DNA from: Microbacterium abyssi
GTDB taxonomy: Bacteria > Actinomycetota > Actinomycetes > Actinomycetales > Microbacteriaceae
Direction: 5' to 3'
Assembly: GCF_015277895.1 (NCBI RefSeq)
Contig: NZ_CP063815.1
Location: 124,001-188,000 of the forward strand
DNA: 64,000 nt
The notes beneath the pieces are model-generated. The model did not search any database. It had not been told where the DNA came from and saw only the letters and a list, made by a program, of their open reading frames with translations. Positions within the stretch are counted from its first letter, which is position 1. Each line of letters opens with the position of its first letter. Both the position numbers and the translations under genes were made by a program. Shown here piece after piece: positions 8,959-33,581 of this stretch.

Positions 8959-10251
8959 ATGGGACAGAGGCACACAGCATTGAAGAGGGTGGGCGGCTTC
9001 GGCGCCGCCCTTGTACTGGCCGTAGGACTCGCAGCCTGCGCACAGGGGTCGTCTTCAGGGGGCGGCGACTCGAGCGTCGTCACACTGAACGGCGACCGCG
9101 CAGACTTCACCGAGGCATACGCCATCGCGGGTGAGGCGCTCCAAGAATCAGCCGGTTTCGGGCTCGAGGCACGCAACGTGCCCTCCACCGAGAACTACCA
9201 GCAGATCGTGCGCTCTTCGCTGAAGACCGACAGCACCACCGATCTGGTCAAGTGGTGGAACGGGTACCGGCTGCAAGAGCTCGCGCGGTCCGGTGGGCTC
9301 GCGGACCTCAGCGATTCCTGGGACGCCGCCGTCGAGAAGGGGTGGGTGAACGAAGACACCCGCGACAGCTTCTCCTACGACGGCAAGGTGTACGGTCTTC
9401 CGATCTACAAGTCCTACTGGACGATCTTCTACAACAAGAAGGTGTTCGAAGAGGTCGGCATCGAGGTTCCCACGACGTGGGCGGAGTTCGAATCGAACAA
9501 TGACGCTCTCAAGGCAGCCGATGTCACGCCGCTGTTCGCCACTCAGCAGGCCGGTTGGACATCATTCATCTGGTACGCGGAGATCCTGTCGAAGCTCGAT
9601 CCGGACTTCTACCAGAAGCTCATGGACGGCGAGGCGAAGTACACCGACCCGACTTCCCGCAAGGCCATGGAGATCTGGTCCGACATGTATGCCAAGGGTT
9701 GGTTCACCTCGCCTGACACCGCCTGGGACAACGAGCCCTCGCTGTTCGCAGCGGGCACCGTCGCACAGGTCCCGATGGGATCGTGGCGAAACGGCCTCTT
9801 CGCAGACACGATGGACCAGGCCGACTACGGCGCCTATCTGCTGCCGGTTGTCGAAGAGGGCGTGCAGCCGTCGGTGATCGTGGAGTCCGGAGTCATCACC
9901 ATGGCCGAGAACGCACCGAACCCCGAAGGCGCGAAGGCCGTCATGGACAGCTGGTTGAGCCCTGAAGTGCAGCAGCCCTGGGCTGATGAGATCAAAGACA
10001 CCTCGGCGAATCCGATGGTCGGCACCGACGACCCCGTGCTCGGCTCGATCCTTGAGCAGGTCGAAGCCAGCGAGCCGGTCGAGCTGGTGCGCTATTGGGA
10101 GGCAGGTCCTCCCGCGCTGATCGAGAGCGGCGTGCAGTTCTTCGGCGCATTCATGGCGAACCCCACGCCGGAGAACATCGATCCGACTCTGCAGAAGCTG
10201 CAGAATCTCGCTGACACCGAGTGGGCGAATTGGAAGGCAGACGAGAAGTGA
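8959..10251 (+). CDS. CUT1 sugar ABC transporter substrate-binding lipoprotein
   Basis: An extracellular solute-binding protein of 430 aa, family 1. A signal peptide with lipobox LAAC (Cys near residue 30) anchors it to the outer face of the membrane, followed by a Ser/Gly linker. YGLPIYKSYWTIFYNKKVFE and the C-terminal WLSPEVQQPWADEI are typical of CUT1 binding proteins. The ATG at 8959 has a GAGGAGG site; an upstream TTG in the same frame falls in the -35 box and is not the start. It is the first gene of an operon with two permeases and an AGE-family isomerase. No ATPase is present, so it probably uses a shared MsiK-type ATPase. Confidence 0.93.
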   Translation: MGQRHTALKRVGGFGAALVLAVGLAACAQGSSSGGGDSSVVTLNGDRADFTEAYAIAGEALQESAGFGLEARNVPSTENYQQIVRSSLKTDSTTDLVKWWNGYRLQELARSGGLADLSDSWDAAVEKGWVNEDTRDSFSYDGKVYGLPIYKSYWTIFYNKKVFEEVGIEVPTTWAEFESNNDALKAADVTPLFATQQAGWTSFIWYAEILSKLDPDFYQKLMDGEAKYTDPTSRKAMEIWSDMYAKGWFTSPDTAWDNEPSLFAAGTVAQVPMGSWRNGLFADTMDQADYGAYLLPVVEEGVQPSVIVESGVITMAENAPNPEGAKAVMDSWLSPEVQQPWADEIKDTSANPMVGTDDPVLGSILEQVEASEPVELVRYWEAGPPALIESGVQFFGAFMANPTPENIDPTLQKLQNLADTEWANWKADEK

Positions 10252-11168
10252 CAGAAACCGTCACGACGGCGACGCTGACCGGGGCGCCCCGGTCAGCGCG
10301 CCGTCGCGCGGGATCGCACGGCGAGCGGGTTCGCAGCATCCCGTTTCTGATCCCGGCCGTCGCGCTGGTGGGGATCATGCTGCTCGTGCCGTTCGTCGCG
10401 ACCGTTTACCAGAGCCTGACGAACGATGACGGTTTCAATGCTGAGTTCATCGGGTTCGACAACTACGTCCGACTCTTCCGAGACCCGCTGTTCGGGCAAT
10501 CGCTGCTGAACACGGTGATGTGGACGGTCGGCACCCTGGTGCTGCCGGTCGGCATCGGCCTGCTGGTTGCCGTCTTCACATCGCAGATGAGGGGCGGAAA
10601 GTGGCTACGGCTAGCCTTCATCCTGCCCTACGCGCTCTCGGGTGCGGCAACTGCGGTGATCTGGGGATTCATTCTTCGCTCGGATGGTGCGCTGAATCAG
10701 GCCATTGCCTTCTTCGGAGGCAGCCCGGCGGCATCCGGCTGGCTGCTGGAGTGGCCGACGAACACAATCGTCATGATCCTTGCCAACACGTGGCAGGCGA
10801 CCGGAGTGGCCGTCATCCTCTTCCTCGTCGGGTTGCAGGCGATTCCTCCCGAGACGGTAGAGGCGGGAACGCTGGATGGTGCCACGGGCACCCGTCTGTT
10901 CTGGCACATCATCGTTCCGCAGTTGCGACCGGTCACCGTGGTCGTCATCGGCATGTCGATCGCCAACAGCCTGCGCGTGTTCGACATGATCTGGCTGCTT
11001 ACCAAGGGCGGACCCGGAGGCTCGTCGGAGACCCTCGCCGTGACCATGTACCGAGAGACATTCATCATCAGCGACTACGGATACGGCGCTGCGGTCGCCG
11101 TTGTGCTGTCCATCATCGTCGTCGGCGCATCCTGGGTGTACCTGCGACAGCAGCTGAAGGAGAGCTGA
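10248..11168 (+). CDS. Sugar ABC transporter permease (MalF type)
   Basis: A 306-aa inner-membrane permease with six predicted helices. Its start GTG overlaps the preceding stop (GTGA), showing translational coupling. The conserved EAA loop appears as ETVEAGTLDGATGTRLFWHI, followed by VPQLRP, the contact site for the ATPase. It pairs with the next permease to form the membrane channel of a CUT1 importer. Confidence 0.93.
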   Translation: MTETVTTATLTGAPRSARRRAGSHGERVRSIPFLIPAVALVGIMLLVPFVATVYQSLTNDDGFNAEFIGFDNYVRLFRDPLFGQSLLNTVMWTVGTLVLPVGIGLLVAVFTSQMRGGKWLRLAFILPYALSGAATAVIWGFILRSDGALNQAIAFFGGSPAASGWLLEWPTNTIVMILANTWQATGVAVILFLVGLQAIPPETVEAGTLDGATGTRLFWHIIVPQLRPVTVVVIGMSIANSLRVFDMIWLLTKGGPGGSSETLAVTMYRETFIISDYGYGAAVAVVLSIIVVGASWVYLRQQLKES

Positions 11169-11171
11169 GCC

Positions 11172-11981
11172 ATGGGCCGCCTCATCCGCAACATCGTCCT
11201 ATCGGCACTGGCGATCGTCTGGCTGGTGCCGGTCTACCTGCTGATCGTCAACGCGCTCACACCGATCTCGCAGTATCACGGAGAGCCACGCTGGTTCCCC
11301 GGCGGCTTCGCGATCGTGGAGAACATCGTCGCCGCGTGGAACCAATCCTCGCTGGGCCTCGGAATGCTCAACAGTCTGCTGTACGCGACCTGCTCCGCAT
11401 TGATCGCCGTGCTGGCTGCTGGACTCGCTGGATTCGCCGTCGTCGTGATGCCGGTCCGCCGGCCGACGGTGTGGTTCTGGCTGATCTATCTCGGCACGCT
11501 GCTTCCGTTGCAGATCTTCCTCGCACCGCTGTTCAAGGCCTATGTCGGGGCGAAGATGTACGACACGTCGATCGGCATGATCCTGATCTACGCCGCGATC
11601 TGCGTTCCGTTCGCGTTCTTCATCGTGCGCAACTACCTCACGACCATCCCGCCGGAGATCGCCGAGGCGGCGAAGCTGGACGGCGCGGGGTGGGGAAGGC
11701 TGTTCGCACAGATCCATCTGCCGCTGATCCGATCTTCGCTCTTCGCAGCCTTCATCTTCCAGTTCACCTGGGTGTGGAACGACCTGCTGTTCGGCATCAC
11801 TCTCACGACCAGTCCGGATCGACGTCCGGTGATGGCGGCCCTGGCCGAGATAAACGGCGGATTCGTGAACGTCGGCCCACCGGTCGTTCTGGCCGCCGCG
11901 CTGCTGGCTTCGCTGCCCACGGTGGTGTTGTTCCTGTCGTGCCAGAGATTCTTCGTGAGCAGTCTGCGCGCCTCTACTTGA
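11172..11981 (+). CDS. Sugar ABC transporter permease (MalG type)
   Basis: A 269-aa inner-membrane permease, six helices. The EAA motif reads EIAEAAKLDGAGWGRLFAQI then HLPL. It starts 3 bp after the first permease. Together with the binding protein at 8959 it forms a carbohydrate importer whose likely cargo, judged by the isomerase, kinase and phosphomannose isomerase around it, is mannose or a mannoside. Confidence 0.93.
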   Translation: MGRLIRNIVLSALAIVWLVPVYLLIVNALTPISQYHGEPRWFPGGFAIVENIVAAWNQSSLGLGMLNSLLYATCSALIAVLAAGLAGFAVVVMPVRRPTVWFWLIYLGTLLPLQIFLAPLFKAYVGAKMYDTSIGMILIYAAICVPFAFFIVRNYLTTIPPEIAEAAKLDGAGWGRLFAQIHLPLIRSSLFAAFIFQFTWVWNDLLFGITLTTSPDRRPVMAALAEINGGFVNVGPPVVLAAALLASLPTVVLFLSCQRFFVSSLRAST

Positions 11982-12009
11982 GCAGGTCACAGAGCTGGGA
12001 GGTCACATC

Positions 12010-13236
12010 ATGCGATGGCACGGCGACCCGAACTGGCTGATCGACGATCCTGAGCACCGATGGATGCTGTCGGGCGAGGCGGATCGTCTGCGGAGCTTCT
12101 TCGCCCAGCCATCCGGGTGGAAACGATACGGCTGGCGCGGATTCGACGGATCGGTTGACGCGGAACGACCGCTCGAACTTTACAGCGCCGCTCGGCTCGT
12201 CCACTGCTTCGGCATCGCGCGGATGCTGGGCGACGAGCAGGCAGGCGGCTGGGCCGCCGAGGGCGTGAGGCTGCTGCTTTCCGTGTTCATCGACCCGCGC
12301 GGTGGCTTCCTCGACATCGTGGCACCGGACGGTTCGCCGGTCTCTGGGCGGCGCAACGCCTACGGGCATGCGTTCGCCCTGCTCGCCGGCGCGACTGCGG
12401 TTCAGGCCGGCCTGCCCCGTGGGGCCGAGCTGCTCGGTCGCGCTCGAGAAGCGATCGACGAACTCTTCTGGGACGACGACGCCGGAGCCGCGGTCGACGA
12501 GGTCGATCCGCAGGGGCTTCCGGTGTCCGACTACCGGGGGCAGAACGCGAACATGCACCTGACCGAAGCGTTCCTCGCGTGCTTCGAGCTCACGGGAGAG
12601 GCCGAGTTCCTGAAGCGCGCGCGTCGACTCGCTGAGCGCTTCGTGATCACAGGCGCGGCGCCACGTGGATGGCGGGTGCCGGAGCACTACACCCGCGAAT
12701 GGGAAGTCGACGAGGAGTACGGACGCGAGCAGCCTCTCGATCAGTTCCGACCCTTCGGCGTGATGCCGGGGCACGCCCTCGAGTGGTCGCGATTGATCCT
12801 CGGCATCGCTGCCCACGATCCGAGCTTCGTCCGTGCTGACGAGGCCGCGCGCGGTCTGTTCACCCGTGCCGTGCAGGACGGGTGGGATGAGGACAACGGC
12901 GGTGTGCGCTACACCACGGACTTCCACGGCGCGGTCGTCGGGTCCGCGCGGATGCACTGGGTGATCGCAGAAGCGCTCGCAGCGTCCGTCTGGTTGGCGC
13001 GGACCACTGGCGACTCGGGGTACGCGGACTGGTACCGAAGGTTCTGGGACTGGACGAATCGGCACGTGATCGATCGCGTTGGCGGCTCGTGGTGGCACGA
13101 GCTCGACGCAGACAATCGTCCGGCATCACGCACGTGGCCGGGTAAGCCGGATCTCTACCACGCGTATCAGGCGGTGCTCAGCGCCCGTCTGCTGCGGCCG
13201 GCCGGGTTCGCGGCCGCAGCGCATCACGACCTGTGA
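12010..13236 (+). CDS. AGE family epimerase/isomerase, probable mannose isomerase (YihS-like)
   Basis: A 408-aa (alpha/alpha)6-barrel enzyme of the N-acylglucosamine 2-epimerase superfamily. Family blocks are visible: NAYGHAFALLA, QNANMHLTEAFLACFE, PEHYTREW, PGHALEWSRLIL, MHWVIAEALAA, WWHELD and KPDLYHAYQAVL. The His residues in PGHALEW and in YHAYQ are the expected catalytic pair. Closest in pattern to YihS/mannose isomerases, which interconvert mannose and fructose; N-acylglucosamine 2-epimerase and cellobiose 2-epimerase are alternatives. It is the last gene of the ABC operon, ending at a bidirectional hairpin. Confidence 0.88.
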   Translation: MRWHGDPNWLIDDPEHRWMLSGEADRLRSFFAQPSGWKRYGWRGFDGSVDAERPLELYSAARLVHCFGIARMLGDEQAGGWAAEGVRLLLSVFIDPRGGFLDIVAPDGSPVSGRRNAYGHAFALLAGATAVQAGLPRGAELLGRAREAIDELFWDDDAGAAVDEVDPQGLPVSDYRGQNANMHLTEAFLACFELTGEAEFLKRARRLAERFVITGAAPRGWRVPEHYTREWEVDEEYGREQPLDQFRPFGVMPGHALEWSRLILGIAAHDPSFVRADEAARGLFTRAVQDGWDEDNGGVRYTTDFHGAVVGSARMHWVIAEALAASVWLARTTGDSGYADWYRRFWDWTNRHVIDRVGGSWWHELDADNRPASRTWPGKPDLYHAYQAVLSARLLRPAGFAAAAHHDL

Positions 13237-13243
13237 GCCTTCG

Positions 13244-13266
13244 CTGAACCGGGGTCTCCGGTTCAG
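13244..13266. terminator. Bidirectional hairpin between converging genes
   Basis: CTGAACCGG-GGTCT-CCGGTTCAG is a perfect 9-bp stem with a 5-nt loop. It lies between the converging AGE-isomerase and mannose-6-phosphate isomerase genes and includes the stop codon of the latter. Confidence 0.8.
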
Positions 13267-15083
13267 TTGTCGCTCGTGCGTGATCCTCGCACGTAAGCCT
13301 TGATCGTCGCGAGGCGCTCGCTTCGCGTGCGCTCGGTGCGTTCGACGCGGTACGCCCCGACGGCGGCCGGGACGATGAACGTCTCGGCGTAGTGCACGAC
13401 GAACGGCTCGAACGCCCCGGTCGGGCTGACGATGCGAGCTTCGTCTCCCTCGACCAGGTTCAGCACGTTCACGGTTCCCTCGGTGTCGTGATCGGCGCCC
13501 TGGGCGAACCAGTGGCGTCGGGTCTCGATGAACTCGAGCTCGTGCAGGCCGGTGCGCTCTTCGACGACGTCGCCATCGGTTCGCAGCGTCTCGACCTGCT
13601 CGAGCAGGTGCTCGTTCACCCACTCGGTGTCGCGGTCCCACTGGATGTTCTTCACACCGTGGTCGAGATGCACAGGGCGAGGGATGCCGTCGAGCCCGAC
13701 CCGACCCCAGTCCCAGAGCTTGAACGTGAAGGTCGACGGGGTGGCCGAGATCTCGAGAACCATCGAGTTGGCGCCCGAGCAGTGGATCGTCCCCGCTGGG
13801 ATCGCGAAGTGGTCGTGCTTTCTGGCGGGGAAGGAGTTGATGTACTTCTCCGCGGGGAAGGGGGCGCCGCCCTCCTGCGCCGTGGTGAGGTCCTCGACCA
13901 TCTGCTGCCGGTCGATGCCGGTCTTGGTGCCGAGGAACACCACGGCGTCATCGTCGGCGTCGAGCAGGTAGTAGCTCTCGTCCTGCGTGTAGGCCATGCC
14001 GAACGTGTTGCGGATGTAGTCCTGGAGCGGATGCACCTGCAGGCTGAGGTTGCCGCCGCCCATGGTGTCGAGGAAGTCGAAGCGGATCGGGAAATCCGCA
14101 CCGAAGCGCGAGAAGTTCTTGGCGCCGAGCAGGTCGACCGGCTGCGCGAACACGAGGTCGATCGAAGGGATCTCGACGACGCCGCCGTCGCCCTCGAGCA
14201 GCAGAGAGTTCTCCTCCGGCACGCAGTCGAAGCACCAGGCGTAGTTGTCCTTCGCCGGATCGAGCCCGATGAGATTCTTCATCCACTGCCCGCCCCACAC
14301 TCCGGGGTCGAAGAACGGCACGACGCGGAACGGCCGCGCCGCGGCATCCTGTAGTGCCTGACGGAAGGCATCGCCGGTGATCATGCCCGCATCGGGGGAA
14401 TCGGGATGCGGAACGGTCGGCGCGATCGCGTTGCCGTCCACGACGAAATCGACCGTGTCGAAGAGCGTGCGCTTGTGGCGATCGGCGGTGCGCCACTCGA
14501 CGTAGAAGCCACGCTTGTACTTGCGGAGACTGTCTTCGCCGGCGTTGTCGGCGCGCCAGTTGGTGGCGCCGGCGCGCTGGCGCAGCTGAATCTCCCAGCG
14601 GGCCATGTCGACGAGCACCGTGGCGGGGTTCTCGAGTCGGTCTGCGAGCAGGGCGGCGCCCCAGCCGATGACGACCGTGGATGCCGCGACGCTCTGCGCC
14701 AGCTCGGAGAGGCGCTCCGAATCGTAGAAGTCGCCGAGCGCGAAGTGGCTCATGACGCCGAGCACGCGGTCGTCGGTGAGGTGCGGGGCGATGAGCTGCT
14801 CGACCTCGGCGCCCGGGCGGGCGGCATCCTCGACATTCACGATCGTCCAGTCGGGAAGCGCCTCCTGGATCTGCGCGCTGAGGGCCGGGATGTCGACGCC
14901 GGGGTAGGTGTCGACGAGGAGAACCGGTGTTGCGCCGCGCACGGCCGCATACTCGGCAGCGGCCTGCCAGCCGGCGGATCCGCGGAGAATGCGCTCGCCG
15001 CTGGGTAGCGGCACCGTGGGCTGGGTGTCGTAGCGGCCGCGTTCGGTGTGTCCCTCGTGCATGTCGCTGATCGGCGTGCTCAA
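13263..15083 (-). CDS. manA: Class I mannose-6-phosphate isomerase (long form)
   Basis: Interconverts mannose-6-phosphate and fructose-6-phosphate in the cytoplasm. The 606-aa protein has two parts. An N-terminal P-loop-like alpha/beta domain (about 1-190) matches the extension of long class I MPIs. The cupin catalytic domain has the metal ligands in GGGNLSLQVHPLQDYI (Gln, His), DESYYLLDA (Glu) and HDHFAIPAGTIHCSG (His). The start was chosen as TTG at 15083: it overlaps the ROK stop codon (TTGA) and has AGGAG 5 nt upstream. The alternative ATG at 15063 lacks this coupling. A longer open frame upstream is antisense-frame noise over the ROK gene. Confidence 0.92.
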   Translation of the reverse strand: MSTPISDMHEGHTERGRYDTQPTVPLPSGERILRGSAGWQAAAEYAAVRGATPVLLVDTYPGVDIPALSAQIQEALPDWTIVNVEDAARPGAEVEQLIAPHLTDDRVLGVMSHFALGDFYDSERLSELAQSVAASTVVIGWGAALLADRLENPATVLVDMARWEIQLRQRAGATNWRADNAGEDSLRKYKRGFYVEWRTADRHKRTLFDTVDFVVDGNAIAPTVPHPDSPDAGMITGDAFRQALQDAAARPFRVVPFFDPGVWGGQWMKNLIGLDPAKDNYAWCFDCVPEENSLLLEGDGGVVEIPSIDLVFAQPVDLLGAKNFSRFGADFPIRFDFLDTMGGGNLSLQVHPLQDYIRNTFGMAYTQDESYYLLDADDDAVVFLGTKTGIDRQQMVEDLTTAQEGGAPFPAEKYINSFPARKHDHFAIPAGTIHCSGANSMVLEISATPSTFTFKLWDWGRVGLDGIPRPVHLDHGVKNIQWDRDTEWVNEHLLEQVETLRTDGDVVEERTGLHELEFIETRRHWFAQGADHDTEGTVNVLNLVEGDEARIVSPTGAFEPFVVHYAETFIVPAAVGAYRVERTERTRSERLATIKAYVRGSRTSDN

Positions 15084-24199: not shown

Positions 24200-24769
24200 G
24201 TGCCTCGTCCTCGCAGCGAAAAAGCCCGCCAGTCGGTTCTGGCGGCGATGCGTGCCGCGCTCGCGTCGGACGGATACGCGTCGGTGACCATCGAGGGTCT
24301 CGCCGCCGAGGCCGAGGTGTCGAAGCAGACGATCTACCGCTGGTGGTCGTCGAAGGCCGCGATCCTCGGGGAGGCGCTGCTGGAGGGTTCGCTGCCGACA
24401 CCTTCCTTACCCGTGACGGATGACTTGGGTGCCGACCTGCGCGCCTGGTTCGCGGCGATGTCCGCCCAGGCCGGCAATGGCGCCAGCGTGGAACTCGCGC
24501 GGGCGCTGATCGCGGTGACCGCGACGGATGCCGAGCTCGGCGCCGCCCTGAACAAGAGGCTCGCCGACCCGATCGTGGAGCAGATCGTCGCGCGGCTTAC
24601 GGTCGCAAAGAATGCGGGGCAGGTCCGCGAAGACGTGGATGCTGCGGCCGTCGCAGATCAGTTCATCGCGATGTCGTCCTACGCGGCGCTGCTGGGGCGG
24701 CCGTTGGATGAGGGGCGGCTGGATGCTTTGGTGGAGGTGCTGATGCGGGGGATCGGCGCTGGCGGCTGA
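24200..24769 (+). CDS. TetR family transcriptional regulator
   Basis: A 189-aa regulator with the N-terminal HTH YASVTIEGLAAEAEVSKQTI then YRWWSSKAAILGEAL (about residues 25-60) and a TetR_C-like ligand domain ending in an Arg/Leu-rich helix. The start is GTG at 24200 and the context is possibly leaderless. It is divergent from the SDR gene, which is its likely target. It is the last chromosomal-backbone gene before the island junction at 24.8 kb. Confidence 0.88.
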   Translation: MPRPRSEKARQSVLAAMRAALASDGYASVTIEGLAAEAEVSKQTIYRWWSSKAAILGEALLEGSLPTPSLPVTDDLGADLRAWFAAMSAQAGNGASVELARALIAVTATDAELGAALNKRLADPIVEQIVARLTVAKNAGQVREDVDAAAVADQFIAMSSYAALLGRPLDEGRLDALVEVLMRGIGAGG

Positions 24770-24802
24770 GGGTCCGAGGTGAGCGGCTCGGCGTGAGCAA
24801 TT

Positions 24803-24839
24803 GCGGTGACAGTGGGTTCAAATCCCACCGTCACCGCCA
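24803..24839 (+). other. tRNA-Ser 3'-end fragment, probable att site
   Basis: A T-arm GTGGG-TTCAAAT-CCCAC (24812-24828), acceptor 3' strand CGTCACC (24829-24835), discriminator G and CCA (24837-24839) form the exact end of a bacterial tRNA-Ser gene. No D, anticodon or variable arm exists upstream. Instead GCGGTGAC lies directly before the T-arm and can pair with GTCACCGC. This is either a tRNA-derived attachment site at the island edge or an internally deleted tRNA. Confidence 0.75.
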
Positions 24840-24843
24840 AAAT

Positions 24844-24888
24844 GAAAGCCCCGATTCTCCTAGAAAGCACTGGGAAGTCGGGGCTTTC
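24844..24888 (+). terminator. Hairpin downstream of the tRNA fragment
   Basis: GAAAGCCCCGA pairs perfectly with TCGGGGCTTTC (11 bp) around a 23-nt loop. The position 4 nt after the CCA end is that of a tRNA terminator. Confidence 0.65.
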
Positions 24889-24980
24889 GTCATGTCCGGG
24901 AACGGGCCGCGGTAATGCAGCGGTAACAGAATTCTGGAGAGGCTCATCGCAGATGAGCCGCGTTCTGGAAGGATCGAGCC

Positions 24981-25436
24981 ATGTCCGCCCCCTCTACAGC
25001 CGATGTGTTCTGGTCTTCCCACCCGATGCTCATGACGGCAGGTGAAGTCGCGCGGTTCCTTGACCGGACCGAGGTGACCGTCGTGTCGCTCGCACGGAAG
25101 CACGAGATCGGGGCGTACAAGGTGGCGGGAAAGTGGCTGATCGCACCGATCGACCTTCGTGGCTTCGCCGCCGGAGATGCGCGTGCGATGAAGTCCGACC
25201 TGCGCCTCGTGATCGAGCCGGCGCCCGAGTTCACAGGAGATGTCGGCGGTGCGCTGTCTCATCTGCCAGAGCGGTTGTCCGCGAGTGCGGTGGCGGAGGT
25301 GTTGCGCGTCGAGGTCGCAAGGCTGAGTGGCCTCGGGCTCGTCGCCGGTCCAGACGGGAACATCGAACAGGAAGGTGTCGTGGCATACCTCCGTTCTGTG
25401 TCGAATTTCGGGCCGCACTACTCGGACGCTTCCTGA
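24981..25436 (+). CDS. HTH (excisionase/MerR-like) DNA-binding protein of the island
   Basis: A 151-aa protein. LMTAGEVARFLDRTEVTVVS, LARKHEIGAYKVAGKWLIAP and IDLRGF follow the winged HTH pattern of excisionase/MerR-like proteins (HTH_17). The C-terminal half could hold a second small HTH (SASAVAEVLRVEVARLSGLG). The ATG at 24981 follows GGAAGGA. It is the first gene of the island, before the methyltransferase genes, so a regulator of the restriction locus or an excision factor are the two options. No integrase gene lies next to it. Confidence 0.7.
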   Translation: MSAPSTADVFWSSHPMLMTAGEVARFLDRTEVTVVSLARKHEIGAYKVAGKWLIAPIDLRGFAAGDARAMKSDLRLVIEPAPEFTGDVGGALSHLPERLSASAVAEVLRVEVARLSGLGLVAGPDGNIEQEGVVAYLRSVSNFGPHYSDAS

Positions 25437-25548
25437 CGCCAACGCGCACAGCAGGCCACGAGTGCCAACGCATACTCCAGTGCGACAGCGCCACGCTCAC
25501 TCGCAGTGTCGGCTGCATACGCCAGAATGAGTTATGCGGAAGGTGATG

Positions 25549-26148
25549 ATGACGGGAACCACAATGATCGAGCCGCGGCACATCAAGTCTCGGGAGCGGG
25601 TGCGCGACCTTGGTGAGGTCTATACGCAGCCGCGTGAGGTGAATGCGATGCTCGATCTCATCCCCGATGCCTTCACCGACATCGACACGCGCTTCCTCGA
25701 ACCCGCAGCCGGCGATGGCAACTTCCTCGTCGCGATCCTGGGACGGAAGATTGCAGCGATCGACGAAGTGAAGCACGGCGGGAGCGTGTACTGGTATGAG
25801 TTCGCCCTGCTTCGTTGTCTCGCCTCGATCTATGGGATCGACATCAGTGATGAGAACATCGACGAGGCTCGCGAACGGATGAGCGCGGTCATGGACGCGG
25901 CACGTGTCTTCCGGGGCGAACCCGCGACCGCGGGCTTCGACGGCGCCGTCGCCGCGATCCTCGCAACGAACATCGTCGTGGGCGACTCGCTGAATGGGGC
26001 GGATCAGATCGTCTTCGTCGAGTACACGCCGCTCCCGGGAGAACACTTCCAGCGTGTGCGATCGGAACTCGAAACTCCCGCGATGGACCTGTTCTATGAG
26101 CCTCCAGCCGCATTGCCGACGATCCACTACTCGGAGCTCGGCGCATGA
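25549..26148 (+). CDS. Small N6-adenine-type DNA methyltransferase subunit
   Basis: An island gene of about 199 aa. KSRERVRDLGEVYTQPREVN, EPAAGDGNFLVAIL (SAM motif I, Asp-x-Gly-x-x) and IYGIDISDENIDEARERM (motif II-like acidic loop) show the SAM-binding half of a class I DNA methyltransferase. It has no NPPY motif, as in the small subunits that precede Eco57I-type methylases in related restriction loci; they contribute the cofactor side. The ATG at 25549 was picked because GGAAGG lies 5 nt upstream; ATGs at 25534 and 25564 are alternatives. Confidence 0.8.
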   Translation: MTGTTMIEPRHIKSRERVRDLGEVYTQPREVNAMLDLIPDAFTDIDTRFLEPAAGDGNFLVAILGRKIAAIDEVKHGGSVYWYEFALLRCLASIYGIDISDENIDEARERMSAVMDAARVFRGEPATAGFDGAVAAILATNIVVGDSLNGADQIVFVEYTPLPGEHFQRVRSELETPAMDLFYEPPAALPTIHYSELGA

Positions 26149-26167
26149 TCGCCGGGCCTGTCGCAGC

Positions 26168-26728
26168 ATGAATGCGCCAAGCGATGCGCATGTTCCCGAC
26201 GTGCTGGAGACGCTCGCTCAGCTGCCGAACGACGATGTCTATACCCCGCCGAAGGTCGTCGACGCGATGCTCGACACCTTGCCCAAGCACGTCTGGGCAG
26301 AGCCCACCTACCGGTGGTTGGACCCTGCCACGAAGTCGGGTATCTACCTGCGTGAGGCTTTCCGGCGGCTCATGGCTGGCCTCGTCGAGTGGGAGCCGGA
26401 CGGAACCAAGCGCCGCGAGCACATCCTCAAGAACATGCTGTTCGGCGCTGCCACGACGCAGATCAACGGCGAGGTTGCCCGCCGCTCTCTCTACCAGACA
26501 AAGAACGCGACGGGCACGGAGATCGAAGACGTCTCCCTACTCGACCTCGTGATCAGCTTTGATCAGCCCGACGGCAACGTCCCCTTCGTCGATACCGAAC
26601 ATACTTTCAGAGGTGAGGGAACCAACCGGCGCTGCATCTGGTGCGGCGCGCCCGAGGCGCTAGTTCGTGAGAGCCGTGAGCAGTTCGCCTACTCGTTTGT
26701 GCACCACTCAACTATCGCGACAAGATGA
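26168..26728 (+). pseudogene. N-terminal fragment of an Eco57I-type DNA methylase
   Basis: A 186-residue reading frame. DVYTPPKVVDAMLDTLPKHV, LDPATKSGIYLREAFRRLMA, KNMLFGAATTQINGEVARRS and the zinc-finger-like RCIWCGAPEALVR are the N-terminal signature of the methylase subunit of Eco57I-like restriction loci. In intact homologues the sequence continues through EQFAYSFIH into a stretch containing the catalytic NPPY motif. Here the frame stops after 'HHSTIATR'. The following gene resumes the homologous protein in another frame (26725), so the middle segment is missing and the gene is broken. Confidence 0.8.
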
Positions 26729-27615
26729 TCAACGACCGTCGTCTCGCGAAGCTGGTAGACAACCCCAAGCTCTTCGACGTGTTCCCGGGTGTCGAAATCA
26801 AGGGCGGTGTGTCCTACTTTCTGTGGGACCGCGAGCACAACGGTGACTGCGAGTTCTCGACTCGCATCGACGGCCGTGTCGTCTCCACCGCGACCCGTGA
26901 CCTTCGCGAGGGGCACGGAGTCGTGATCCGCGACAACGTTGCGTCGGCACTCGTGCACAACGTGACGAAACACTCGAACGGGAGCGTCGAGGAGTGGTTT
27001 TATCCATCTCTTGCTTTCAACCAGGAGTGGCGGACTAACTACCGTGGCGAGAGCGACAGCCACTTCGCGGGGTCCGTCCCGCTCATCCACAACAGCGGCG
27101 TCGGTTACGTGTCGCCCGAGAACTTCGAGCGCAACCTGGACCTCGTCAACAAATGGAAGGTGCTGATTCCCAAGGCGAGCGACGGGCACGGCCGTGAGGT
27201 GTCGTACGTGATCGGGGAGCCGATCGCTCTGGCGCCGGGTTCGGTCTGTACGCAGTCGTACTATGTGGCTGGCGCGTTCGATTCCCGCGACGAGTGCGAG
27301 CATTACGCGCAGTACCTCTGCACCAAATTCGCTCGGTTCCTAGTGCTCCAGAGGAAGGCGACTCAGGACATCACATCAGAGAGGTTTCGCTTCGTGCCGG
27401 CCCTGCCCATGGATGCGCTCTGGAGCGACGAACGTCTCTACGCTCATTTTGGCTTAACAGACGCTGAAGCTGCCTACATCGATGCGAGCATCCACCCGCG
27501 GGAACCTGTCTTCTCGCTCGACTCCGCTATCCCAGCATCCCATCTTGCGGGAGGAAGCAAGCACCGCGCTGGCGACGTTGCTGTCGAATCCGACGATGAA
27601 GGTGATGACGAGTGA
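26725..27615 (+). pseudogene. C-terminal fragment of the Eco57I-type DNA methylase
   Basis: A 296-residue frame beginning MINDRRLAKLVDNPKLFDVF then PGVEIKGGVSYFLWDREHNG. That matches the part of intact methylases just after the NPPY and MIIPSRWF region. It continues through PLIHNSGVGYVSPENFERNL and DSRDECEHYAQYLCTKFARF to a normal family C-terminus (GLTDAEAAYIDASI). The apparent ATG is an internal Met, not a natural start; the residues before it in frame (YRDK) still fit the family. It overlaps the next gene by GTGA. It might be translated as a stable DNA-recognition fragment, but it cannot methylate. Confidence 0.8.
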
Positions 27616-29816
27616 AGACCGACGTCGTAAAGCCTAAGGACGTCTTCTACAACCCGACGCGCCTTGTCGTACCGCTCTTCCAGCGTCCCTACGTTTGGTC
27701 GAAGGAAACGCAGTGGAGCCCGCTCTGGCAGGACATAGTTCGGCTGATCGAGGTGATCTCTCAGCACAACCAGACTGCGACGCACTTCCTGGGGGCGATC
27801 GTCATCCAGCAGGTGCCAACGACTCTCGGCGCCCTGCCCACCTGGAATGTCATCGATGGTCAGCAGCGCCTCACGACGTTGCAACTGCTACTCGACGCGC
27901 TGCACGCAGAGCTCGAACGTCGAGGGTGGGCGCAGTTGGCCGGCCAGATTCTGCCGCTCGTTGAGAATCCGTCCGACTATCGCGACGACGAGAACGATCG
28001 CTACAAACTGTGGCCGACTAATCGCGACCGCGACGGGTTTACCTCGGTGATGTCGGCTCCGACACCGGTCGATTACTCCGCACTCGTCAAGTCCCGACTT
28101 GGTGACGCGCACGAGTTCTTCGCGGAGTCGATCGCTGGTTGGCTCGGGGACGATAACGCGGCTGAACGGCGAGCACGGATGCTCGTGGCCACCGTCATGG
28201 ATCGGCTGGAGATCGCGAGCATCCGTCTTGATGCGAATGAAGACGCACAGGCGATCTTCGAGACGCTCAACGCGCGGGGCACGCCTTTGTCGGCCGCTGA
28301 CCTAATCAAAAACTTCGTGTTCCAGAATCTCGCAGGGACACCACATGACGCCGAGCAGGCCTACCTGAACTATTGGGCCGAGTTCGAGACGCCTTGGTGG
28401 GAGAAGGAGATCACGACCGGGCGCATCAAGAATTCACGCGCGTCGCTGTTCCTGTGGCAGTGGCTCACCGCCCGCACCCTCATCGACTTCCCGATTCGTG
28501 AGGTGTTCACGCAGTTCAAGCACTATGTGAACACCGTCGCGAAGGACATCGGCGTGCTGCTTCCACACATTAAGGCTGCGGCCGACCGGTATCGGTCGAT
28601 CATCGAGGGCTCCGAGAACGTCAACGGCCAGCTCAGCCGACCGGAGTTGTTCAGCTACCGTGTCGGGACGCTCGACTCTGAGATCGCCCGTCCGCTGCTC
28701 ATCTGGCTCGACGAGCCGGAACAGGCGTCGGTCCCCGTTGCTGATCGGGAGCGCATTCTCGAGATTCTTGAGAGCTGGTTCGTCCGCCGCGCGCTGGTCA
28801 AGGCGCCCTCACAAGGTTCGAACCGGTTCATCATCGACCTGATGCAGCATCTCAGCACGCAGCCGCACGACGCGCTCCCTGACGCGACCGAGGCATACCT
28901 CGTCGCCAATCACACAGCCGTTGGATACTGGCCGGGCGACGCCGAAGTCAGGGAAGCGTTGACCGGAGCGACAACGTACTGGAAGTATCTGCGGGGCCGC
29001 CTGCGCATGGTTCTCGAAGCGCTTGAGGACGCGAAACGCGGGTACCCGAGCGGGAAGCAGCTCGCGATGGGACCGGTCGTCCGAAGCAAGGGCACCATCG
29101 AACATCTGATGCCGCAGGGATGGCGCAAGCACTGGCCCGCTGAGCTGACCGACGAGCAAGAGGCTGCACGAGACCGCATTGTCCAGCAGCTCGGAAACCT
29201 CACCCTGGTCACCCAGAAGTTGAACAGCAAGATCAACAATGGGCCGTGGCATTCAAAGCGAGAGCACTTCCTCAACCATGACGATGTGTTGATCACGAAG
29301 GATGCGATGAACCTTGCGCCGAAGAGCTGGGGCGAGACGGCGATCGAGCAGCGCACCGCGATGCTCATCGATCAGATTCTTGATATCTGGCAAGCGCCGG
29401 CGGGGCACGTTGGTCTCGGGGGAGGCGCCACCGTCGCGCCGGCGACTTCTGTGACCGTCGACATCGCGCAGCTGGTCTCGTCGGGCTGGCTGGAGGTCGG
29501 CAGTGAGCTAACAACCCGGCACCCGAGATCGATGCACGCGGGTGTGCGTGCATCGGTGGCTCAGGACGGGCGCATCTTCATCGGCGACGTGGCATACGCA
29601 ACGCCGTCCGCGGCGGCAGTGGCGGTGACCGAAACCGACACGAACGGCTGGTGGTGGTGGGTGGTTGCCGCCACCGGAAAGTCGCTTCAGGATCTCCGAG
29701 CTGAGTACCTGGCGAGCGTCGGCGAGGCCGACGCGGATGTCGTAGACGAGGTCTCCGACGACGTTCATGCACTCGACGCGGACGACCCTGAGCCGGCCGA
29801 GGAAGACACCGCGTGA
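27612..29816 (+). CDS. GmrSD-like nuclease: DUF262-DUF1524 with C-terminal RAMA domain
   Basis: A 734-aa cytoplasmic protein of the island. The DUF262 (ParB/Srx-like) domain is marked by VPLFQRPYVW (20-29) and DGQQRLTTLQ (82-91). FETLNARGTPLSAADLIKNF follows. The DUF1524 HNH-type nuclease centres on EHLMPQGW (about 497-504) and NLTLVTQKLNSKINNGPW (about 529). The C-terminus (about 617-690) has the RAMA pattern: LVSSGWLEVGSEL ... ASVAQDGRIFIGDVAYATPS ... NGWWWWVV. The tail is acidic. The family includes modification-dependent (type IV) restriction enzymes, and RAMA is predicted to sense modified DNA. The start GTG overlaps the previous stop, and the end overlaps the helicase gene (GTGA), so the three genes are coupled. 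Confidence 0.9.
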   Translation: MKTDVVKPKDVFYNPTRLVVPLFQRPYVWSKETQWSPLWQDIVRLIEVISQHNQTATHFLGAIVIQQVPTTLGALPTWNVIDGQQRLTTLQLLLDALHAELERRGWAQLAGQILPLVENPSDYRDDENDRYKLWPTNRDRDGFTSVMSAPTPVDYSALVKSRLGDAHEFFAESIAGWLGDDNAAERRARMLVATVMDRLEIASIRLDANEDAQAIFETLNARGTPLSAADLIKNFVFQNLAGTPHDAEQAYLNYWAEFETPWWEKEITTGRIKNSRASLFLWQWLTARTLIDFPIREVFTQFKHYVNTVAKDIGVLLPHIKAAADRYRSIIEGSENVNGQLSRPELFSYRVGTLDSEIARPLLIWLDEPEQASVPVADRERILEILESWFVRRALVKAPSQGSNRFIIDLMQHLSTQPHDALPDATEAYLVANHTAVGYWPGDAEVREALTGATTYWKYLRGRLRMVLEALEDAKRGYPSGKQLAMGPVVRSKGTIEHLMPQGWRKHWPAELTDEQEAARDRIVQQLGNLTLVTQKLNSKINNGPWHSKREHFLNHDDVLITKDAMNLAPKSWGETAIEQRTAMLIDQILDIWQAPAGHVGLGGGATVAPATSVTVDIAQLVSSGWLEVGSELTTRHPRSMHAGVRASVAQDGRIFIGDVAYATPSAAAVAVTETDTNGWWWWVVAATGKSLQDLRAEYLASVGEADADVVDEVSDDVHALDADDPEPAEEDTA

Positions 29817-32257
29817 CCAAGTACATCTATGCCTATACGCATGCTGGAAACGCGAAGCCGTGGACTCGGCCGAGTGGGCAGGTAGGGGACACCTGGATCA
29901 AGGTCGGCGAGACCGTCAATCCGGGAATCGACCGCGTTCGCCAGCAGGTGGGAACTGCATTCCCAGGTCTTCATGGCGTCCAGATCCTCTTCCATTCCGA
30001 GCCCGCGCTACGTGCTGACGGCACCGAATTCAGCGACCGTGGTGTGCACCGTGTCCTGCGGAATGCAGGAATCGTTAATCCGGGCGGCGAGTGGTTCGAG
30101 GCGACTGAGGCTGAGGTCTGGGCAGCGATCAGATCGCTGCAGCGCGGGCTTCCGTTTGACCCGACACGTGTCCAGGACTTTGAGCCGCGGCCCGAGCAGA
30201 GACGTGCCGTCGAGCTCACGGCGGCGTTCTTTCGCGCGCACGGGACGCCAGAACTCGCAAGCGCACCGAAGTTCTTGTGGAACGCGAAGATGCGTTTCGG
30301 AAAGACCTTCACGACCTATCAGCTCGCGAAGGAGATGGGCTGGACTAAGCTGCTCATCCTCACCTACAAGCCTGCGGTGCGAAGCGCATGGCGCGACGAC
30401 CTGTTGGGTCACGTCGACTTCATCGACTGGCAATACGTCGACCGCGACACCCCGCCTTACGAAGCGGATGCGCTGGTCGACAGTGGACGGCCAACCGCTT
30501 GGTTCGCGTCTTTCCAGGACGTCATTGGCCGCGACGCGAACGGCAAGCCCAAACCTCGAAACGAGACGCTCCATATCGTGGATTGGGACTGCATCGTCAT
30601 CGACGAGTTCCACTTCGGCGCCTCGACCGCAGCAGCCCGGGAAGTCTACGACCCGCAGGACAGCGCGGAGGCAGCGCTGGCGCAGCTCTTCGAGAGGGCA
30701 TCGGACGAGTCGAGCGACACGGACGCCGACGTCGTGCCAGAGCTCGACTACGGGCTGAAGACGAAGTACCATCTTCACCTGTCCGGCACGCCGTTCAAGG
30801 CCATCACCAATGGCGACTACGACGACTCTGAGGTATTCAACTGGACGTACATCGATGAGCAGCGCGCGAAGTCAGAATGGAACCCCAAAGCAGGACGCAA
30901 TCCGTATGCGGAGTTGCCCCAGATGCGTATGTACACGTACGCGATGGGGGCGCCAACGGGCGACTGGGTCGATGGCGGCGAGTTTAATGGGTTCGACCTG
31001 AACACCTACTTCAAGGCGAAGCGAGTGGCGGGTGCCTATGAGTTCGAGAAGCCGGACTACGTGGCATCATTCCTGGACCTCATCCGTGGGAAGAAGGCGC
31101 TACCCGAGCGGATCGAGGACGGGGACGATGCAGATGCACAGTTCCCCTACGAGGCCGCTGAGTTCAAGGAGGCGGTGAAGCACTCGGTCTGGTACATGCC
31201 CGACGTTGCCGCCTGCGAGGCAATGGCAGCTCAATTGCGCGCAGACCCGTTCTTCTCCACATTCGAGATCTACGTCGCTGCCGGCGCGAAGGCGAGGATC
31301 GGGGCGCTGGCCCTTCCGCCGTTGCAGGCGGCGATACGACGTGCGGATGAGACCGGAAAATCGGGGTCGATCACGCTCTCGTGCGGAAAGCTGATGACAG
31401 GCGTGACCGTCCCCGAGTGGTCATCAATATTCATGCTTCGCTCGCTGAAAGCTCCCGAGTCCTACTTCCAGGCGGCGTTCCGGGTCCAGTCGCCATGGAA
31501 GGTCGACGGCGAGATCAAAAAGCAAACCGCCTACGTGTTCGAGTTCGACCCGAACAGGGCTCTATCGCTCATCGCTCTGTACGGGACGGAACTCGCGAAC
31601 AACTCTGCCGACAAGAAGGCAACGCAGGCGTCGGTGCTGGGCGAGTTGATCAACTTCCTCCCGATCTTCGCGATCGATGGTGGCCGGATGGAGCAGCTCG
31701 ATGTGCAAGCAATCCTCGACTGGGCGCACGGTGGCATCGGTGCAAACGCCCTCGCGCGACGCTGGAAGTCGACGGACCTGTACAACCTCAATGGGGTCAC
31801 GATGGACCGACTCCTTCATGACGCGGACCTCATCGCAGAGTTGGAGCAGATCGAGGACTTCCGGAGCATTCGGGAGGAGGCCGAAAAGATCGTCACCGCG
31901 TCGAAGAAGCTTGCCACCGTCAAGCGCGACGGCGGGGGCGCGAAGGAGCAGCGCCCACACAAGAAGGCGATCGCGGATCAGCGTAAGGACATCCGAGCCA
32001 AACTGAAGAAGGTTTCGGCGAAGGTCTTGATCTTCATGTACCTCACCGACTTCCGCGAGGAGCGGCTGAAGCACGTCATCGAGTCACTCGATACCGAACT
32101 CTTCCTCCGCTCGACGGGGCTCTCGCTCGAGTCGTACGGCAAGCTCACGGAGATCGGCGTCATCGATGTCGGCAACATGACCGACGCCATCCAGAAGTTC
32201 CGCTACTTCGAGAAGAAGAGCATCGAGGCGCTGGTTGGATTGGATCGTGATGCCTGA
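29813..32257 (+). CDS. GIY-YIG / DEAD-box restriction helicase-nuclease
   Basis: An 814-aa predicted restriction subunit. The N-terminal T5orf172/GIY-YIG-like domain (1-100) has YIYAYTHAG, IKVGETVNPGIDRVRQQ and EFSDRGVHRVL (nuclease Tyr, Arg and Glu candidates). The SF2 helicase core follows: Walker A NAKMRFGKTFTT (about 157-168), DEFHFG (motif II, about 262), HLSGTPFKAI (motif III, about 323) and SYFQAAFRVQSPW (motif VI region, about 551). A Lys-rich helical C-terminus completes it. It resembles the R subunit partner of Eco57I-like methylases. All helicase motifs are intact. Its start overlaps the DUF262 gene by 4 bp. Confidence 0.9.
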   Translation: MTKYIYAYTHAGNAKPWTRPSGQVGDTWIKVGETVNPGIDRVRQQVGTAFPGLHGVQILFHSEPALRADGTEFSDRGVHRVLRNAGIVNPGGEWFEATEAEVWAAIRSLQRGLPFDPTRVQDFEPRPEQRRAVELTAAFFRAHGTPELASAPKFLWNAKMRFGKTFTTYQLAKEMGWTKLLILTYKPAVRSAWRDDLLGHVDFIDWQYVDRDTPPYEADALVDSGRPTAWFASFQDVIGRDANGKPKPRNETLHIVDWDCIVIDEFHFGASTAAAREVYDPQDSAEAALAQLFERASDESSDTDADVVPELDYGLKTKYHLHLSGTPFKAITNGDYDDSEVFNWTYIDEQRAKSEWNPKAGRNPYAELPQMRMYTYAMGAPTGDWVDGGEFNGFDLNTYFKAKRVAGAYEFEKPDYVASFLDLIRGKKALPERIEDGDDADAQFPYEAAEFKEAVKHSVWYMPDVAACEAMAAQLRADPFFSTFEIYVAAGAKARIGALALPPLQAAIRRADETGKSGSITLSCGKLMTGVTVPEWSSIFMLRSLKAPESYFQAAFRVQSPWKVDGEIKKQTAYVFEFDPNRALSLIALYGTELANNSADKKATQASVLGELINFLPIFAIDGGRMEQLDVQAILDWAHGGIGANALARRWKSTDLYNLNGVTMDRLLHDADLIAELEQIEDFRSIREEAEKIVTASKKLATVKRDGGGAKEQRPHKKAIADQRKDIRAKLKKVSAKVLIFMYLTDFREERLKHVIESLDTELFLRSTGLSLESYGKLTEIGVIDVGNMTDAIQKFRYFEKKSIEALVGLDRDA

Positions 32258-32307
32258 ACGATTGCGCCCTCAGCGGACCCAGCGTCGAGGCCGTTAGGGA
32301 CGAGCAC

Positions 32308-33048
32308 ATGCATCCAGATTGGTTCGATTGGCTCAGCCTTGCGGTGACCGTGCTTGCGGCGGTTGTGCCGGCGTGGCTCGCCATCGCCCTGTGGCGGTCG
32401 GATCGTCAGAGTTCAATCCGCGAACGCCGCAGCGCGGCGACGCGCGAGTTCACGCACCTCCTCGCAACAGGCGACCCAGTTCTTGTGCGTTTCCGTGACC
32501 TTGGATACTTCGCCGAGACGATGGGTCGAGGTTCTAGTCCGCTCCTGCAACTGATTCATCGCTACATGGAGTGGGACCGGGATGAAGAGCGCGAGGAGGA
32601 GCGCCAGGTCAAGGGCGGCGAGATTCAGAAGTCGCGTGAACCGCGATTGGACTTGTCGGTTGATGCCAACACCGCGATCTTGCGCTGGAACCGTGACGCT
32701 GACTACCGGGCTGACCTCACCGAAGTCGTTCTTGCCAACGGTGAGATTTTCCCTGCCGAAGAGGACAACCGAATCATCTCTCCGACCACTCGTCGAGCCG
32801 CCGAGGATGAGATCCTGAGCGACCCCCGTGAGTACCGTGAGTGGCTGGCGGGAACGAGGCTTGCACCGGGCCGCATCCGTCGTCGTCGGCTGCTTGAGCG
32901 GCTGCGCTTCTGGCCCACGGGCACCGTGGTGCTCACGGAGCCGCTCAATCCGGCTGCGACCAAGGACTACCTTGACAACGACGAGATCGACGGCGACGAA
33001 TGGCTGCGCGAGCGCTCGACAGTTCCGCCCGAAGAGCGCGACTGGTAG
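32308..33048 (+). CDS. Membrane-anchored hypothetical protein of the island
   Basis: A 246-aa protein with one N-terminal membrane helix (LSLAVTVLAAVVPAWLAIAL, residues 10-29), then a charged helix (RSDRQSSIRERRSAATREFT) and a highly charged soluble part (EWDRDEEREEERQ). The C-terminus is acidic. It starts 50 bp after the helicase gene and may belong to the same operon. Not recognised. A membrane-tethered accessory of the defence locus is possible but unsupported beyond position. Confidence 0.65.
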   Translation: MHPDWFDWLSLAVTVLAAVVPAWLAIALWRSDRQSSIRERRSAATREFTHLLATGDPVLVRFRDLGYFAETMGRGSSPLLQLIHRYMEWDRDEEREEERQVKGGEIQKSREPRLDLSVDANTAILRWNRDADYRADLTEVVLANGEIFPAEEDNRIISPTTRRAAEDEILSDPREYREWLAGTRLAPGRIRRRRLLERLRFWPTGTVVLTEPLNPAATKDYLDNDEIDGDEWLRERSTVPPEERDW

Positions 33049-33581
33049 CGGCGCTACCTCGTCCAGAGCGGCAGTTCGTTCCAACCTTTGGGGAACCCCA
33101 TGGTGTTCTCAAGAGTCATGCCGCCCACGGTTCCGAGCTTGTTCGCCTGTGTCGCAAGGGCTGACCACGCCCAAGTGCTTGAGGGGTTCGAACCCACGTG
33201 TCGTGCGCAGCCTTCCCCTCGCAGGTGCGCTCTCGCGTGTCGGATCATTCCGATCCGATGCGATGCCGAGCAGGTGTTGCGCGACGAGTAGGCACAGCAA
33301 CTCAACATCGTTGAGTGCAGGTTTGCGCCCTGCACGATGATCCCGCGTGAACCCGATCGCGGGCAGGATGCGGTCATCGAGACAGGCCTCGAATCGCAAT
33401 ATCGGGTGGCTCTGAACCGCAATATTTAGTGGCCCTCAGACCTCCAAATACGCACACCGTCGCGCCGCCGAGTTGAGGGTTCGGGCTGGTCGCTTCGTCG
33501 GCACGGGGGATTCGAGCGGAAGCCACGCGCGAGACTGTTGCGCCAGCCGTCGCGCTCTTTGCGACGGCTGGCGCCCCCTAT
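33049..33581. other. Intergenic wreckage at the right side of the island
   Basis: No intact gene. It contains the frameshifted IS982 transposase fragment (33215-33399). A minus-strand stretch at 33060-33150 reads MGFPKGW, a phrase common near the end of DNA methyltransferases. A short copy of a sequence found again at 36223 also lies here. Confidence 0.55.
33215..33399 (-). mobile_element. Degenerate IS982-family transposase fragment
   Basis: On the minus strand AGRKPALNDVELLCLLVAQH then LLGIASDR is the N-terminal signature of IS982-type transposases. The continuation IRHARAHLRG appears in the next frame, showing a frameshift. No DDE domain or terminal repeats are visible, so this is a dead remnant. 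Confidence 0.65.

Follow-up and report, generated by a model that had tools for sequence, protein, structure and literature searches.

A restriction-modification operon of Microbacterium abyssi whose adenine methylase gene lacks its catalytic segment

What becomes of a restriction locus when the catalytic segment of its methylase is missing and its helicase and nuclease genes stay open? The question is raised by five tightly packed frames on the + strand of a 64,000-nucleotide stretch of the Microbacterium abyssi genome (NCBI RefSeq assembly GCF_015277895.1, contig NZ_CP063815.1, positions 124,001 to 188,000), which we refer to as the window and number from its first letter. We named the frames M1, M2N, M2C, GMR and HEL: a small methyltransferase subunit, two pieces of a larger methylase (M2), a GmrSD-type nuclease and a helicase. 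Frames overlap by 4 bp at 26725, 27612 and 29813, and the open reading frame coordinates bore out the frames and overlaps described in an earlier reading of this DNA that used its letters alone (the sequence-only reading). The explanation that we favour, and consider probable, is that M1, M2 and HEL form a restriction-modification (R-M) system with GMR embedded in a five-gene operon, and that M2 recently lost about 200 bp by a chance deletion, which silenced methylation and restriction.

M2N (26168..26728) is the N-terminal piece of an Eco57I-type methylase and ends at a frameshift stop, and M2C (26725..27615) is the C-terminal half, presumably the target-recognition part. Neither had a Pfam match. 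Aligned to P0001, a relative of 555 residues that bears PF07669, M2N was 84% identical to residues 13-190 and M2C 88% identical to residues 255-555, and by these alignments the two pieces descend from one intact Eco57I-type methylase. The sequence-only reading had assigned them to the N- and C-terminal thirds of such an enzyme; the common origin stands, while the C-terminal piece is about half of the protein. To find relatives we joined the two pieces by X and used them as one query, which scored 1164 matches among 7998 candidates. The best 120 were examined and, as one was the window's own M2C, they left 119 relatives, drawn from best-scoring lists. All 119 contain NPPY, the hallmark of Eco57I-type PF07669, and the window lacks it, which confirms the earlier observation that the NPPY segment is gone and the frame shifted. 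NPPY is the catalytic motif of N6-adenine methyltransferases, a role that we take to hold here, as we do the roles of the target-recognition domain and of the GIY-YIG residues.

The size of the gap could be measured from two landmarks. The distance from a conserved His to the Met at which M2C starts is 72, 73 or 77 residues in 118 of the 118 relatives longer than 520 amino acids (52, 26 and 40 proteins, respectively), and the same interval in the window is 20 nt. The net loss, at a junction in 26711..26724, amounts to 196 nt against P0001, 199 against the Microbacterium oryzae ZSM5 locus (L033) and 211 against locus L034, none of them a multiple of three. This is equivalent to 65-70 residues, slightly below the 70-90 that had been estimated from the letters. 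According to the alignments and a structural model of P0001 (mean pLDDT 77.6), the lost part holds NPPY together with adjoining core strands (202-205, 237-242) and helices (223-232, 244-248). The best structural matches of this model were the adenine methylases CamA, BrxX and M.TaqI; a sequence search of the PDB at E 0.01 gave no match for P0001 or HEL, and for M1 only a designed protein (0.01). Catalysis by the M2 remnant is not credible, and the evidence supports a loss of modification, with the remnant unable to act as a methylase. No relocated copy of the segment was found: a search of the strain's own genome with P0001 returned only the two known pieces.

Homologues that naturally lack the segment would give the gap another meaning, and none was found among the 119 best relatives. 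Nor did an NPPY-less M2 appear among the M2 matches covering the site in 117 loci (some genomes are represented twice) in which we checked the M2 frame. M2 was complete and in one frame in 80 loci, all with NPPY; it showed a frame change or a stop within the match in 18, again all with NPPY, the stops not having been individually inspected. It was partial at edges in 13 and missing from six. NPPY was thus present in the 98 complete or split copies and in six of the 13 partial ones, and the other seven begin past the site.

The operon was then followed across bacteria through its helicase. The best 80 of 352 HEL relatives came from Actinomycetota, Bacteroidota, Fibrobacterota, Clostridia, Chloroflexi, Treponema and others; an M2 piece lay upstream of HEL in 74 of these 80 loci and M1 in 61. 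Five of the six loci without M2 have HEL at most about 510 bases from a contig end, and the sixth is L111, where positions 9953-13501 hold a Hespellia stercorisuis helicase relative and then a gene of 209 amino acids. L033 has the same order as the window, M1-M2-GMR-HEL, with M2 intact. M1, M2 and HEL make up a widespread and little-studied operon, probably a three-gene, ATP-dependent R-M system, and the GmrSD-RAMA nuclease is an optional passenger of this operon. M2C matches were found in 40 of 366 genomes of the genus, counting the window and 12 weak ones. Two loci carry a variant arrangement (L160 4867-9849, L157 8804-13893), consisting of M1, a helicase of 1099-1110 amino acids and a gene of 345-350 amino acids whose start lies shortly ahead of NPPY. 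The helicase frame of L160 contains a match to part of M2N, while its separate 345-residue gene carries NPPY and the C-terminal part.

M1 (25534..26148), a SAM-binding subunit without NPPY, matched the PADLOC MTase_II model (1.3e-8); the start given earlier, 25549, is an ATG further along in the same frame. Both M1 and M2C were matched by Type II/IIG methylase models of PADLOC, and M2N weakly (E 0.008), and one IIG model of 1359 positions matched both M2C and HEL. HEL (29813..32257) combines a putative T5orf172/GIY-YIG-like N-terminus with an SF2 helicase/translocase. Its match to PF10544 is weak (E 0.02, below the cut-off), and this domain is among the precomputed annotations of 12 of 120 listed proteins; residues Y6, Y8, K30, G32, R41 and E93 are kept. 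The HEL model (mean pLDDT 80.7) best matched SNF2-type motors, followed by the Type ISP enzyme LlaBIII (rank 5) and HsdR (rank 46), and no GIY-YIG structure was among its best 50 fold matches. No Mrr nuclease, coupler or Type_ISP_C Pfam domain was found in HEL, M2N or M2C, which sets the locus apart from Type ISP; the Type ISP enzyme that this genome encodes lies at another place.

The mechanism that we propose begins with a chance deletion of about 200 bp that would have removed the catalytic core of M2 and shifted its frame, after which the M1-M2-HEL system would no longer methylate. HEL would be a GIY-YIG-like nuclease with a DNA motor, M1 and M2 would provide methylation and target recognition, and the three may work as a Type I/ISP-like complex, with HEL dependent on M1-M2 for locating its target. 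Since recognition presumably lies in M2C and operon order ties HEL to M2, restriction would require the methylase complex and would be lost with it. This coupling is supported by M2 standing upstream of HEL in most of the surveyed loci and by the M2N match inside the L160 helicase frame. Methylation and restriction would then stop together and leave the cell unharmed. There is a precedent in PaeR7I, where deletion of the methylase gene left the nuclease inactive and harmless (PMC3488263). GMR, for its part, would act independently on modified foreign DNA and may still work; in Vibrio cholerae, the protection given by an embedded GmrSD pair is described as independent of HsdR restriction (PMC11411939). 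The sequence-only reading had offered three ways in which the nucleases could persist without methylation: no need for self-methylation, silence, or cover by another methylase. The genes are indeed open, and the list lacked a dependent restriction subunit, which we judge likeliest.

Apart from the gap, the operon shows little sign of wear. Outside the junction, M2N violated none of 46 columns conserved at >=99% and M2C none of 55, that is 0 of 101 for M2 overall and 1 of 126 at 97%; this test has low power, since the relatives average just 0.2-0.3 such changes per part. HEL keeps all 194 of its columns that are conserved at 98%, of which 114 relatives break 1.1 on average, and GMR violated none of 52 columns invariant among 25 relatives, the longest frames of L124-L148. 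The helicase and nuclease genes thus remain open as had been claimed, and general decay of the operon was not seen in the column tests of M2 (the weak one), HEL and GMR. The dN/dS values against L033 were 0.055 for GMR, 0.087 for HEL and 0.14-0.19 for M1, M2N, M2C and a neighbouring HTH gene, with dS mostly >1, and they mainly record the time before the deletion. As the rest of M2, GMR and HEL are without decay, the loss is either recent or an assembly error. It is probably recent and harmless to the cell. The genome collections searched contain one genome per species, and the best M2 relative in them is 88% identical.

An assembly or sequencing error, with an intact M2 in the strain and an artificial gap in its sequence, is the alternative that we take most seriously, and we regard it as unlikely. 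It would account for the pristine state of the remaining M2 parts, and frameshifted methylases beside restriction genes have turned out to be sequencing errors before (PMC3488263). Against it, the genome is one contig of 3.27 Mb, 100% complete, and no repeat at the deletion site came out of a repeat scan over 24700-33500. Nor is the disappearance of about 200 bp like the usual error, a small indel. The locus occurs once in the genome. As to a deletion between direct repeats, alignments with L033, L034, L035 and L114, judged by eye, show the two edges to resemble each other imperfectly at best.

The window is not peculiar in having a broken M2, as three further genomes of the genus (G189, G107 and G155) carry M2 split in two frames near residues 211-271, just past NPPY (L166 4210-5840, L167 4237-5891 and L116 8780-10388, respectively). 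With the window these make four of the 28 genus genomes that have a strong M2C match (E <1e-20), two of the 28 being cut by contig ends. HEL is open at full length beside the broken M2 in G189 and G107; if real, these copies show that cells tolerate the loss of M2 while the helicase stays open. The G155 copy has a split HEL as well, and M1 and GMR are each in one frame. In G048 (L168 5217-7645) it is the helicase that lies in two frames and M2 is whole, and M2 lies in two frames in two metagenome-assembled genomes (L036 8392-10001, L109 1540-2483); the splits in these last three are sequencing errors or broken copies.

Could the pieces serve a purpose? In one version the system would have given up methylation and retained target recognition: M2N and M2C, co-translated by stop and restart, would join M1 in a reader that no longer methylates and that steers the GIY-YIG-like motor or the RAMA-GmrSD nuclease onto foreign DNA, the cell being protected otherwise and breakage in the genus acting as a switch of mode; we consider this improbable. 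We give hardly more than slight credence to a plainer version, in which M2N and M2C, translated by stop and restart, persist because they recognise DNA without methylating it and serve HEL or GMR as a guiding platform. The ATGA coupling, the lack of decay in either piece and the natural split of M2 near the deletion point in L160 speak for such a platform. The pieces are, however, without core strands in the P0001 model, none of the 119 relatives does without NPPY, and the restart is a conserved Met codon within the ATGA overlap, so that the overlap comes with this codon and needs no selection. It is similarly improbable that M2 is a switched gene in the genus, broken after NPPY in a phase-variable-like manner, with the window copy switched off and locked in that state by a larger deletion. 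The clustered frame changes in G189, G155 and G107 point that way, as do the breaks of G189 and G155, which by eye lie in G-rich sequence. Scanning L008, L021 and the window operon for tandem repeats revealed no array where the frames break, and we rejected phase-variable repeats on this result; moreover, the loss in the window is not slippage, and indels in G-rich sequence are also a common sequencing error.

Very unlikely, too, is that HEL remains an active nuclease whose sites are covered by another methylase or are absent: a search of two Pfam families showed that the genome does encode a Type ISP enzyme (1629 amino acids, L153 4654-9543), a Type III-like pair of N6/N4 methylase (677) and ResIII helicase (870; L155 3068-7710) and one further N6/N4 methylase, but the presumed target-recognition part sits in the broken M2 and nothing was seen that points to HEL working alone.

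Several points weigh against the chance deletion of a methylase on which restriction depends. The dependence of HEL on M2 in this family is something that we infer, and the 10 kb upstream of the L111 helicase contain no M1 and no M2. The pieces may still be in use, to judge from the ATGA coupling and from the genes downstream, which have stayed open, and the other methylases of the genome might protect the host. There would be no real loss if the assembly were wrong, and the additional broken M2 genes, found in multi-contig drafts, may be sequencing errors. As for GMR, the V. cholerae pair TgvAB gave, by itself, 10-100 fold less protection than its complete cluster (PMC11411939). Growth arrest by SspE, likewise a DUF262-DUF1524 protein, is reported when its modification partner is missing (PMC12707154), and since GMR also matches SspE models, a free GMR need not be harmless.

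GMR (27612..29816) contains GmrSD_N (PF03235, 3.7e-36), GmrSD_C, a His-Me nuclease domain (PF07510, 3.3e-24), and RAMA (PF18755, 1.7e-14). Both GmrSD domains score over the cut-off, with a DGQQR motif in the DUF262 part, and D82, G83, H498, N529 and N538, invariant among relatives, are kept, which places the protein among the GmrSD enzymes. Action on modified DNA would agree with this family; the role of RAMA as a reader of N6-methyladenine is disputed (PMC9963953). GMR matches (E up to 1e-60) occurred in 34 of the 366 genus genomes, and we read the neighbourhoods of 13 that were at least 63% identical, window included. The order M1-M2-GMR-HEL was found in the window and G118, M1-GMR-M2-HEL in G276, G155 and G017 (L115, L116 and L117), and M1-M2-HEL-x-GMR in G250; in G362 and G241 GMR lies beside the variant M1/HEL/M2 set. 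It precedes a Type ISP enzyme in G316 and a Type I set in G044, and is near an HsdM-like gene in G028 (the last two by eye, from frame starts); no R-M gene was recognised near it in G244 and G105. As its neighbours vary in R-M type, GMR is a passenger of several R-M types. GmrSD enzymes are known from Type I and BREX loci (PMC11411939; PMC4619093), and fusions to DUF4357 have also been noted (PMC4619093).

Upstream of the operon lies an HTH_17/excisionase-like protein, a possible regulator (24981..25436, + strand; PF12728, 5.7e-8). A gene 77% identical to it adjoins the L033 operon, but on the other side and on the opposite strand. Its NCBIfam MADS1 match fell below the cut-off and, with weak matches only, we rejected an identity with the MADS system. 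Within 24800-24840 a run of 27 bp exactly repeats the 3′ end of tRNA-Ser (cga), whose sole other copy (C1:2748674-2748700) is within the full tRNA gene; the run is possibly the remnant of an attachment site at the edge of a defence island.

A real loss would make the strain a methylase knock-out supplied by nature, in an M1-M2-helicase system that is widespread and has been little studied. Cells would then seem able to survive the helicase and the RAMA-GmrSD nuclease, provided that these are expressed, in the absence of cognate methylation, and such non-lethality would distinguish nucleases that act freely from a Type I-like system in which they depend on the methylase complex. Should the recurrent M2 breakage in the genus be confirmed, this dependence becomes testable in several strains. 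The survey in addition shows one GmrSD-RAMA family beside several R-M types within a genus.

Our literature search, which mostly did not cover subscription journals, returned no description of this exact gene set. The suggestion that the system might be undescribed holds to that extent; what the window contains is a broken copy of a widespread R-M operon, to which a published system is similar in parts. This nearest published operon that we found, DnmA-YeeB-YeeC of Bacillus subtilis and Vibrio crassostreae, unites an N6-adenine methylase, an SF2 helicase and a T5orf172/GIY-YIG protein (PMC9973331). There the GIY-YIG part is a separate protein, whereas in the intact relatives here a GIY-YIG-like part shares one protein with the helicase, and the available text names no second SAM-binding subunit, which here is M1. 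In B. subtilis it is described as a relic, and in V. crassostreae it is reported to affect sensitivity to some phages (PMC9973331). In DnmA-YeeB-YeeC the methylase works and restriction is lost, and here it is the methylase that is lost; the two are likened by their described parts and not by sequence.

Other systems share single features. The Type ISP enzymes LlaGI and LlaBIII (PMC3874165) have a nuclease, a translocase, a gamma-type methylase and C-terminal target recognition, and LlaBIII is matched by the HEL model, but each is a single polypeptide with an Mrr-like nuclease, in contrast to the separate genes and GIY-YIG-like part seen here. CglI/NgoAVII likewise comprises three genes and requires a DEAD-family ATPase for cleavage, with a PLD nuclease and a methylase layout other than here (PMC4267653). 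GmrSD-family Type IV enzymes are embedded, as here, in a Type I operon of V. cholerae (TgvAB) and in BREX (BrxU); TgvAB needs two proteins, whereas GMR is one protein with RAMA (PMC11411939). The situation itself is already known from solitary restriction enzymes beside methylase pseudogenes, 74 genes of which were catalogued from REBASE (PMC3488263); compared with those, the locus in the window has a GIY-YIG-like helicase motor and an embedded GmrSD gene.

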